Origin: Gammaproteobacteria bacterium
GTDB lineage: Bacteria > Pseudomonadota > Gammaproteobacteria > Steroidobacterales > GCA-2729495
Assembly: GCA_016874095.1 (NCBI GenBank)
Contig: VGVH01000026.1
Location: forward strand, 1 to 33,458
Direction: 5' to 3'
DNA: 33,458 bases
In this document: positions 29,998-32,130 of the stretch, piece after piece
Layout: the number at the start of each line of letters is the position of its first letter
How positions within the stretch are numbered: the first letter of the stretch is position 1
Notes under the pieces: model-generated
Seen by the model: only the letters and a program-made list of their open reading frames with translations
What the model was told of the DNA's origin: nothing
Database searches by the model: none
Made by a program: the position numbers and the translations under genes

Positions 29998-32130
29998 ATG
30001 TATCGTCCTCTCTCAGTCCTGCGGATCCTGCTGGCCGCTGTCGCGGTCGTCGTTGCCGCGTCTTCCCTGCCTGCCATGTCGGGCGCCGAACCGCTCGAAC
30101 ACGCTGCCGAACTGGCGCAGGCGCGCGTGAGCGCCTCCGACCTGGAGAAAGGCAGGGTGCTGTACGTGCAGAACTGCGCCGCCTGTCACCAGCCCGAGGG
30201 CCAGGGCCTGCCGGGCGCGTTCCCGCCGCTGGCGAAGTCGGACTTCATCGCCGCCAATCCGATGGACGTGCTCAAGGTGACGGTGCGGGGCCAGCAGGGC
30301 CGGATAACCGTCAACGGCGTCGAGTACAACAATGTCATGCCGGCGATGAGCTATCTCGACGACCGTGACCTCGCCCGGATCATCACCTACGTGCTGAACA
30401 GCTGGGGCAATCCCGGCGGCCGCATCACGCGCGAGCAGGTCGAGGAGTACCGCCAGGGCACCGGACTTGAAGCGAAGCAGGCCGCCGGCGAGCGCCACCC
30501 GGGCACAGGCGAAGCGGAGCAGTCCTACCAGTCGCAGCCGTCGATGATCTCGGAAGCCGAGCAGCGCGTGACACCGGGCGCGCCGACCGTGTCGGAAGCC
30601 GAGTTCAGTCAGGCGAAACAGCTGTACTTCGAGCGCTGTGCGGGTTGCCATGGCGTGCTGCGCAAAGGCGCGACCGGCAAGCCGCTTACACCCGACGTGA
30701 CGATGCCGCGCGGCACCGACTACCTGAAAGCGCTCATCAAGTTCGGGTCGCCGGCCGGCATGCCCAATTGGGGCACGTCCGGCGAGCTGACCGAGCCGCA
30801 GATCGACCTGCTGGCCCGCTACCTGCAGCACGAGCCGCCGATGCCGCCCGAATGGGGCATGAAGGAGATGCGCGACTCGTGGAAGGTGCTCGTCCCCGTG
30901 GCCGACCGGCCCACGAGCCAGCAGAACGACATCAACCTCAGGAACGTGTTCGCGGTGACCCTGCGCGACACCGGTGAGGTGGCGCTCATCGACGGTGACA
31001 CGAAGAAGCCGATCAACTTCGTGAAGACCGGCTACGCGGTGCACATCTCGCGGCTCTCGCACTCCGGCCGCTACGTCTACACCATCGGCCGCGACGGCAA
31101 GGTCGACCTGATCGACCTGTGGATGAAGGTGCCCCAGACCGTGGCCGAGATCCGCGTTGGCCTGGAGGCCCGCTCGGTCGAGACGTCCAAGTACAAGGGC
31201 TACGAGGACAAGTATGCGATCGCGGGCTCCTACTGGCCGCCGCAGTACGTGATCATGGATGGCGCCACGCTCGAACCGATGAAGATCGTGTCGACCCGCG
31301 GCATGACGGTCACCACGCAGGAGTACCACCCGGAACCGCGCGTCGCCGCGATCGTGGCGTCCCACCAGCATCCTGAATTCATCGTCAACGTGAAGGAAAC
31401 CGGCCGGATCCTGCTGGTCGACTACAGCGACATCGAGAACCTCGGCGTCACGACCATCGACGCAAAGGAGTTCCTGCACGATGGCGGCTGGGATTCCTCG
31501 CTTCGCTACTTCCTGACCGCGGCCAACAAGTCGAACACCGTGGTGGTCGTCGACTCGAAGGAGCGCAAGCTCGCAGCGAAGGTGCCCGTCGACGAGATCC
31601 CGCACCCGGGTCGCGGCGCCAATTTCGTCCACCCGGAGTTCGGGCCCGTTTGGGTGACCAGCGCGCTCGGCAACGACAAGGTGACGCTGATCGGAACCGA
31701 TCCGGACAAGCATGCGCAGCATGCCTGGAAGGTGGTGAAGGTGCTGAAAGGCCAGGGCGGCGGATCGCTGTTCGTCAAGACGCACCCGAAGTCGAACAAC
31801 CTGTGGGTGGATTCACCGCTCAATCCGGAGGCCGCCATCAGCCAGTCCGTGGCCGTGTTCGACATCGACGACCTCGACGCCGGCTACACCGTGCTGCCGA
31901 TCGCCGCATGGGCGAAGCTGGGACCCGGGCCGAAGCGCGTCGTGCATCCCGAGTACAACGCCAGCGGCGACGAGGTGTGGTTCTCGGTCTGGAGCGGCAA
32001 GGAGGAAGAGTCGGCAATCGTCGTCGTCGATGACCGCACCCGCAAGCTGAAGCGTGTCATCAAGGGGCCGCGGATCGTCACGCCCACCGGCAAGTTCAAC
32101 GTCTACAACACGGTCAACGATGTCTACTAG
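29998..32130 (+). CDS. nirS: Cytochrome cd1 nitrite reductase with an extra N-terminal cytochrome c domain
   Basis: 710 residues, about 140 more than Pseudomonas NirS. It reduces nitrite to nitric oxide in the periplasm. Signal peptide: residues 1-30. First cytochrome c domain (about 45-145): heme site CAACH (60-64), likely axial Met114 or Met117 in [10 protein letters not shown], ending [11 protein letters not shown]. Linker: about 146-200, Glu/Gln-rich. Second cytochrome c domain (about 203-285): CAGCH (214-218) and Met255 in [13 protein letters not shown], matching the normal NirS c domain. The heme d1 propeller (about 310-710) has [29 protein letters not shown], [47 protein letters not shown] and [12 protein letters not shown] motifs. 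GGAG lies seven bases before the ATG. It overlaps the porin gene by 11 bases; no nir biosynthesis gene is in view. Confidence 0.95.

Follow-up and report, generated by a model that had tools for sequence, protein, structure and literature searches.

The window, the 33,458-nucleotide stretch of gammaproteobacterial DNA analysed here (contig VGVH01000026.1), ends with three genes on the forward strand, encoding a TonB-dependent receptor, a cd1-type nitrite reductase (NirS) with an additional cytochrome c domain, and a porin-like outer-membrane protein (Table 1). The contig stops at position 33,458, 1.3 kb past nirS. The start codon of nirS is an ATG preceded by GGAG.

Table 1 Features of the nirS locus, with positions in the window
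Feature	Position	Strand	Evidence
TonB-dependent receptor, 776 aa, 110 bp upstream of nirS	27557..29887	+	Pfam Plug and TonB_dep_Rec_b-barrel
c-c-d1 nitrite reductase (nirS), 710 aa, whole gene	29998..32130	+	Translation, Pfam, PDB sequence matches
Probable Sec signal peptide, residues 1–30	29998..30087	+	Read off the sequence
C1, extra cytochrome c domain, residues 50–136, CxxCH 60–64	30145..30405	+	Pfam Cytochrom_C (PF00034)
Linker, residues 137–171	30406..30510	+	pLDDT <50 at protein residues 160–190 (model residues 123–153)
N-terminal arm of canonical NirS, residues 172–196, including Tyr177	30511..30585	+	Sequence alignment
C2, canonical NirS c domain, residues 203–276, CxxCH 214–218, Met255	30604..30825	+	Pfam Cytochrome_CBB3 (PF13442)
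Heme d1 propeller, residues 313–705; His349, His494, His536	30934..32112	+	Pfam Cytochrom_D1 (PF02239)
Porin-like outer-membrane protein (Alginate_exp, PF13372)	32120..33337	+	ATG overlaps the end of nirS

Architecture and distribution of the c-c-d1 protein

An earlier note on this DNA described two CxxCH heme sites ahead of a canonical heme d1 propeller, and translation, Pfam assignment and alignment bear this out. The propeller matches PF02239 with 496 bits (curated cut-off of 25.5), which places the protein in the NirS family, and residues 172–710 form an end-to-end match to a Pseudomonas NirS chain (E = 7.7e-263). Equivalent residues are offset by a constant 167 from the P. aeruginosa numbering. 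By this offset Tyr177, invariant in 21 of 21 aligned proteins, corresponds to what we take to be Tyr10 of P. aeruginosa. His349, His494 and His536 correspond to His182, His327 and His369, which are quoted in PMC8756737 as d1-site histidines together with the heme c residues His51 and Met88.

The histidine of the C1 CxxCH motif and the first methionine of the VMPxM stretch are present in all 80 aligned c-c-d1 proteins, as are the C2 histidine and methionine and the three d1-site histidines. Judging from the sequence, Met114 is the likely axial ligand of the C1 heme. Of the 157 columns that are invariant in 34 single-c NirS proteins (42 minus eight, which comprise proteins from fetched loci without a d1 cluster and two paralogues), 151 are retained in 95% or more of 78 c-c-d1 proteins from genomes that lack d1 genes. 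Given this strong conservation of the d1 site, c-c-d1 NirS looks like a working cd1-type enzyme, and a loss of d1 binding was mostly rejected on the same counts. The structure model has a mean pLDDT of 77.3 and a pTM of 0.65, and Foldseek ranks NirS first, followed by NirN and NirF. The position of C1 relative to the rest of the predicted structure is undefined, with a pLDDT below 50 in the C1–C2 linker.

C1 shares homology with the cytochrome domain found in three-domain copper nitrite reductases (NirK). In a PDB sequence search, residues 25–153 match the C-terminal domain of these enzymes (E = 1.5e-34), with E values of about 1e-34 for the 6qpv and 3ziy chains and 1e-30 for 2zoo, whereas free cytochromes c552 are poorer matches (about 1e-16). 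No copper nitrite reductase domain was matched in the window protein by Pfam or NCBIfam. The resemblance to NirK-fused cytochromes that the earlier note had suggested is upheld by these values and by a C1 of the same type on NirK proteins of the window's order. Its other suggestion, a NirC-like domain, was rejected: the 37 PDB sequences matched at E ≤ 0.001 include none named NirC, a judgement based on these matches rather than on a direct alignment with NirC.

Fourteen loci of the order, picked from the partial matches of the order search, have a C1-like match outside a full-length c-c-d1 NirS. Twelve of them contain a frame of 487–560 codons with C1 near the C-terminus; of the other two, L298 has no frame and L306 has a 187-codon piece at a contig end. 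All five frames with a C-terminal C1 that were scanned are NirK by TIGR02376. Mean identity between the NirS and NirK sets of C1 domains is 44%, and a C1 tree, built on few columns, needs two changes for the two sets, so a single origin of the two fusion sets may be compatible with it. Both fusions are present together in G091 and G375, where NirK was scanned, and probably in G296, whose reading frame was not scanned. NirK-type frames with a C1-type cytochrome at the C-terminus lie at loci L294, L295 and L296, all in genomes with a c-c-d1 NirS as well. NirK and NirS, two unrelated nitrite reductases, are both found fused to a single type of cytochrome module.

The gene neighbourhood agrees with the proposal that the protein carries its own electron-donor module. 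Searches with the two small cytochromes encoded in the P. mandelii nir cluster gave no match outside nirS at any of 79 c-c-d1 loci, compared with matches at 6 and 30 of 37 single-c loci, and the best reading is that C1 would take the place of separate donor cytochromes.

A protein search of 396 sampled genomes of the window's order found matches over the full length (from query residue 49 or earlier to residue 710) in 89, and an assembly chimera was rejected on this count. Across the class, 68 of 369 genomes gave a match at E ≤ 1e-100. Five of these are full length, two from the same order and three from other orders (G1108, G1092 and G1098), and in the other 63 the match stops short of C1. 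Among the best 80 of 561 relatives, the named contigs include members of Lysobacterales, Woeseiaceae, Wenzhouxiangella, Luteimonas, Rehaibacterium, Dokdonella and Steroidobacteraceae. In a tree of the cd1 part of 80 c-c-d1 and 42 single-c proteins, the fused proteins are grouped with two label changes, and one single-c row lies, weakly placed, inside the fused group. The c-c-d1 proteins thus form nearly one clade, so the gene and receptor counts given below are not independent events. The earlier note had allowed that a survey might show the architecture to be both common and already described; it proved common within the order, but in print it was found for Chloroflexi only.

Some occurrences depart from this pattern. 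A contig binned as Opitutales (Verrucomicrobiota; L078, 3854–5986) encodes a 710-residue c-c-d1 NirS, by misbinning or transfer. Within the window's family, single-c NirS frames of 530–600 codons and 52–61% identity (L222, L223; G131:C56, G174:C274 and G062:C27:128972) lie mostly alongside a c-c-d1 gene or a piece of one; at L222 a window-type porin-like gene adjoins the frame, and NirDLGH was found in G062 only among the genomes with such frames. For the Woeseiaceae, NirS/NirK and incomplete denitrification are treated in PMC12175321, the available part of which mentions heme once, for transport.

Heme d1 biosynthesis genes

According to the available part of PMC13168839, siroheme is converted to heme d1 by NirDLGH, NirJ, NirF with NirC, and NirN, and both the final step and the insertion of d1 into NirS are periplasmic. 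The genes were sought with known models. NirDLGH (PF17805) is present in 2 of 92 c-c-d1 genomes (2 of 77 and 0 of 15) and in 84 of 88 single-c genomes (41 of 44 and 43 of 44; Fisher p = 1.4e-43, kinship disregarded). The two c-c-d1 genomes, G062 and G048, are also the only ones of the 77 with NirJ above the cut-off, and the propeller scan recognized a standalone NirF and a full NirN (57–62% and 53–54% identity to P. mandelii, respectively) in these two only. Other propellers comprise NirS-like paralogues in G156 and G168, a NirN-like protein in G070 and one more in G048 at 137 bits; weak matches of 19–42 bits occur in 15 of the 80 genomes scanned.

The window's own genome has no PF17805 match, its only PF02239 match is nirS itself, and the NirJ model reaches 40.4 of the 515.45 bits of its cut-off; a location of the known heme d1 genes elsewhere in this genome was rejected on these scans. 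The one-contig genomes G029, G070, G082 and G065 likewise have no NirDLGH match and no NirJ above the cut-off. At the fetched loci, matches to NirF, NirD and NirJ outside nirS were found at none of 79 c-c-d1 loci versus 34, 32 and 33 of 37 single-c loci, where NirF can cross-match NirN.

Of the 89 full-length order genomes, 77 were scanned for NirDLGH, NirJ and propellers, and the other 12 (11 at 62–82% completeness, and G153, whose NirS is near-identical to that of G070) for NirDLGH only. G119, G131 and G162, with single-c or partial NirS, were also scanned, had no NirDLGH and stand outside the counts. The NirDLGH scan covered 44 of the 63 class genomes with a match short of C1; the remaining 19 are mostly at 44–50% identity, and G418 was covered in the other comparison set. 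For the 37 comparison genomes with fetched loci, the protein itself was examined to establish single-c status; for the rest of the 88, this status was taken from the match range or assumed.

Three comparison genomes with NirS that are 96–100% complete, G705 (L228), G444 (L229) and G464 (L230), have no NirDLGH and neither receptor type near nirS, and may be further d1 scavengers. G070, a one-contig genome without NirDLGH, NirJ above the cut-off or NirF, encodes a NirN-like propeller (L308, 6109–7710; G070:C1:2977549) with 44% identity to NirN and no CxxCH, perhaps a relic or an insertion helper. In G035, a d1-lacking genome, a radical SAM frame (L126; G035:C39:1275–2261) scores 129 bits with the NirJ model, below the cut-off and against a background of about 40.

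Outer-membrane proteins beside nirS

Clustering of the neighbours at 81 loci yielded one receptor cluster, present at 61 loci and nearly always adjoining nirS, and a second, at 11 loci, that includes the window's gene. At 66 of 77 order loci (the 77 counted among 89) and at all three other-order loci, nirS has a receptor of one type or the other no more than 3 kb away. None of the 37 single-c loci has one at this distance, and neither type was found within about 7 kb. The heme-type receptor profile is matched in 58 of the 66 linked cases. Among these 66, the receptor is upstream in tandem in 53 (45 heme-type and 8 window-type), downstream and convergent in 9 (heme-type), divergent in 2 and downstream in tandem in 2, and the three other-order loci have a heme-type receptor in three arrangements. 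Five of the 11 loci without a receptor within 3 kb belong to the window's genus, in genomes with a window-type homologue elsewhere; the others include that of G062, which has d1 genes, and some near contig ends. TonB receptors are abundant in c-c-d1 genomes. In seven of seven genomes the heme-type profile gave its best score, out of 21–112 first-look candidates, to the gene beside nirS; a row of the profile itself appears to derive from one of these genomes, G091.

Three of five nirS-linked receptors tested (L079, L047 and L081) pass an NCBIfam cut-off for heme receptors, and two stay below (L110 at 316.0 of 316.85 bits and L058 at 278 bits). The nearest PDB chain to the L081 receptor is PhuR (E = 3.6e-74). 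The two residues that we take to be the axial heme ligands of PhuR are not kept in any of 54 heme-type receptors; two close paralogues also lack them, so their loss does not single out nirS-linked receptors. For the window's receptor the best NCBIfam model is TIGR01783, at 135 bits (cut-off of 223.5), and the scores with TIGR01785 and TIGR01786 are below the cut-offs (61.0 of 316.85 and 54.6 of 323.75 bits). The two types are distantly related, with 26–35% identity over 124–191 residues in the alignments shown.

Window-type receptors are present in 18 of 19 genomes searched in the window's family, a set without its NirS-free members. The exception, with no homologue at E ≤ 1e-40, is G062, the only carrier of d1 genes among the 19. 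The gene has an in-frame stop in G168 and is partial in G119 and G099. The expectation that genomes with d1 genes have no receptor holds for G062 and fails for G048, where d1 genes occur together with a receptor adjacent to nirS. Outside the 37-locus set, Thiothrix fructosivorans plasmid pTfr153 (L114, 8001–9539) carries a single-c nirS that is missing from the listed gene table, with 72% identity to the cd1 part of the window protein, no d1 genes nearby and a weaker TonB receptor match about 4.3 kb away.

The cluster of the porin-like gene comes next after nirS on the same strand at 32 of 81 loci, and its product is perhaps a channel used with the nirS genes. FNR-like boxes, scored against what we take to be the FNR consensus, occur with at most one mismatch upstream of 10 of 66 receptors (1.1% in shuffles) and 7 of 77 nirS genes (0.6%). 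With at most two mismatches, the counts are 28 of 66 (12.8% in shuffles) and 12 of 77 (8.9%), the latter hardly above background. At the two divergent loci the box sits between receptor and nirS. In the window no box better than three mismatches was found upstream of the receptor or nirS, the promoter scan gave no sigma-70-like site, and one terminator-like site is present at 29,865–29,877 (1.6 in shuffles).

Proposed heme d1 supply and relation to known systems

With neither donor genes nor d1 genes around nirS, the simplest reading is that C1 would supply the electrons and the receptor the cofactor. No known heme d1 pathway is encoded in the genome, and we therefore propose the receptor beside nirS as a heme d1 importer. 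Electrons would pass from the cytochrome pool through the hemes of C1 and C2 to heme d1, where nitrite would be reduced to NO. Heme d1 set free by other bacteria would enter through the TonB-dependent receptor and reach the periplasm, where NirS matures; with d1 insertion taking place in that compartment, nothing beyond an outer-membrane receptor would be needed. The fused donor and the receptor would together replace nirM/nirC and nirFDLGHJEN. That the locus is such a self-contained cassette, working by cofactor scavenging, has in our judgement an even chance of being correct. Counting against it are the d1 genes beside a receptor-linked nirS in G048, the 11 of 77 loci without a linked receptor, the position of the window's own receptor outside the heme family, the lack of a good FNR-like box in the window, the abundance of TonB receptors in c-c-d1 genomes and the small number of independent events implied by a nearly single clade. 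More broadly, and more tentatively, heme d1 may be a shared good: a large share of the Lysobacterales/Woeseiaceae-type Gammaproteobacteria, together with individual lineages from other parts of the class, would be d1 auxotrophs that reduce nitrite by a portable two-gene cassette (c-c-d1 NirS and a dedicated d1 receptor, recruited from two distantly related subfamilies) and depend on d1 from complete denitrifiers, a picture that we rate a little short of even.

Heme d1 could instead be made by enzymes non-homologous to NirDLGH, NirJ, NirF and NirN, with the receptor serving iron or heme supply and merely co-regulated. The conserved d1 site calls for some source of d1, the best-scoring model for the window's receptor, though below its cut-off, is a siderophore model, and G048 has d1 genes as well as a receptor. 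Four enzyme families would, however, have to be replaced together, and what recurs beside nirS is a receptor and a porin, a weak argument as the other clusters were not annotated systematically. We know of no non-homologous heme d1 pathway and consider this explanation unlikely, if still credible. It is distinctly unlikely that the receptor takes in heme or siderophores for cytochrome c maturation or for iron supply at low oxygen, with d1 arriving through unlinked general heme uptake. Membership in TIGR01785/TIGR01786 and similarity to PhuR do point to heme-like ligands in general, and FNR-like boxes would follow from simple co-regulation too; yet the linkage survives rearrangements, spans orders and is absent at all 37 single-c loci, which need heme c as well, and the presumed PhuR axial positions are changed throughout.

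The absence of a known d1 pathway would also be expected if the c-c-d1 protein used another tetrapyrrole (heme b or siroheme) or were a d1-free cytochrome, and a title in the reference list of PMC3694632 concerns a reconstitution. The universally present d1-site histidines and the retention of nearly all canonical invariant columns make this very unlikely. Hardly credible is an ordinary NirS with an added donor domain whose d1 genes fall into gaps of draft genomes. Most of the genomes are drafts and the window's contig stops shortly after nirS, but the search that fails to find NirDLGH in 90 of 92 c-c-d1 genomes finds it in nearly all single-c genomes, and the one-contig genomes contradict it.

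If the scavenging reading is true, an organism with nirS, a standard denitrifier marker, need not be able to reduce nitrite on its own. The amounts of NO and N2O formed in sediments and reactors would then hinge on species exchanging a cofactor, and heme d1 would be added to B12, heme and PQQ among the cofactors traded in communities. The reading leads to a prediction that can be tested cleanly in genera already in culture, for instance Luteimonas, Rehaibacterium and Wenzhouxiangella.

Canonical NirS of P. aeruginosa and Paracoccus has the same C2 and d1 domains, ligands and N-terminal arm, and P. mandelii NirS is 68% identical to the window enzyme. The window's locus differs by the N-terminal C1, by the lack of a heme d1 nir cluster and by the neighbouring receptor and, often in relatives, porin. 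A NirS with two cytochrome c domains before the d1 domain (C1-C2-NirS) is reported as unique to Chloroflexi in PMC8756737, the sole paper on such proteins found in open PMC full texts (most subscription journals lie outside this coverage); its C1 is called cytochrome c551/552, and the two genomes shown have no other denitrification genes within the 20 kb neighbourhood. As in the window, one reading frame encodes two cytochrome c domains followed by the d1 domain; the window protein, however, is gammaproteobacterial, and its C1 is of NirK type by its own PDB sequence matches. The two-cytochrome NirS is therefore not unique to Chloroflexi. In three-domain NirK, the homologous cytochrome c is at the C-terminus of a copper enzyme, whereas C1 in the window is at the N-terminus of a heme d1 enzyme.

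On heme d1 import, no title or abstract opening was found in open PMC full texts, a coverage that leaves out most subscription journals. Most of the relatives' nirS-linked receptors belong, or nearly so, to the TonB heme/hemoglobin receptors (TIGR01785, TIGR01786; PhuR), but they lack the presumed PhuR axial positions and are linked to nirS, and the window's own receptor is of another subfamily. The E. coli TonB receptor PqqU scavenges PQQ for the periplasmic apo-glucose dehydrogenase. In the window the cofactor would be heme d1, its uptake is proposed from the gene context and orthology of the receptors is unsupported, but by analogy the logic would be the same: a periplasmic apoenzyme, no cofactor biosynthesis and a dedicated outer-membrane receptor.
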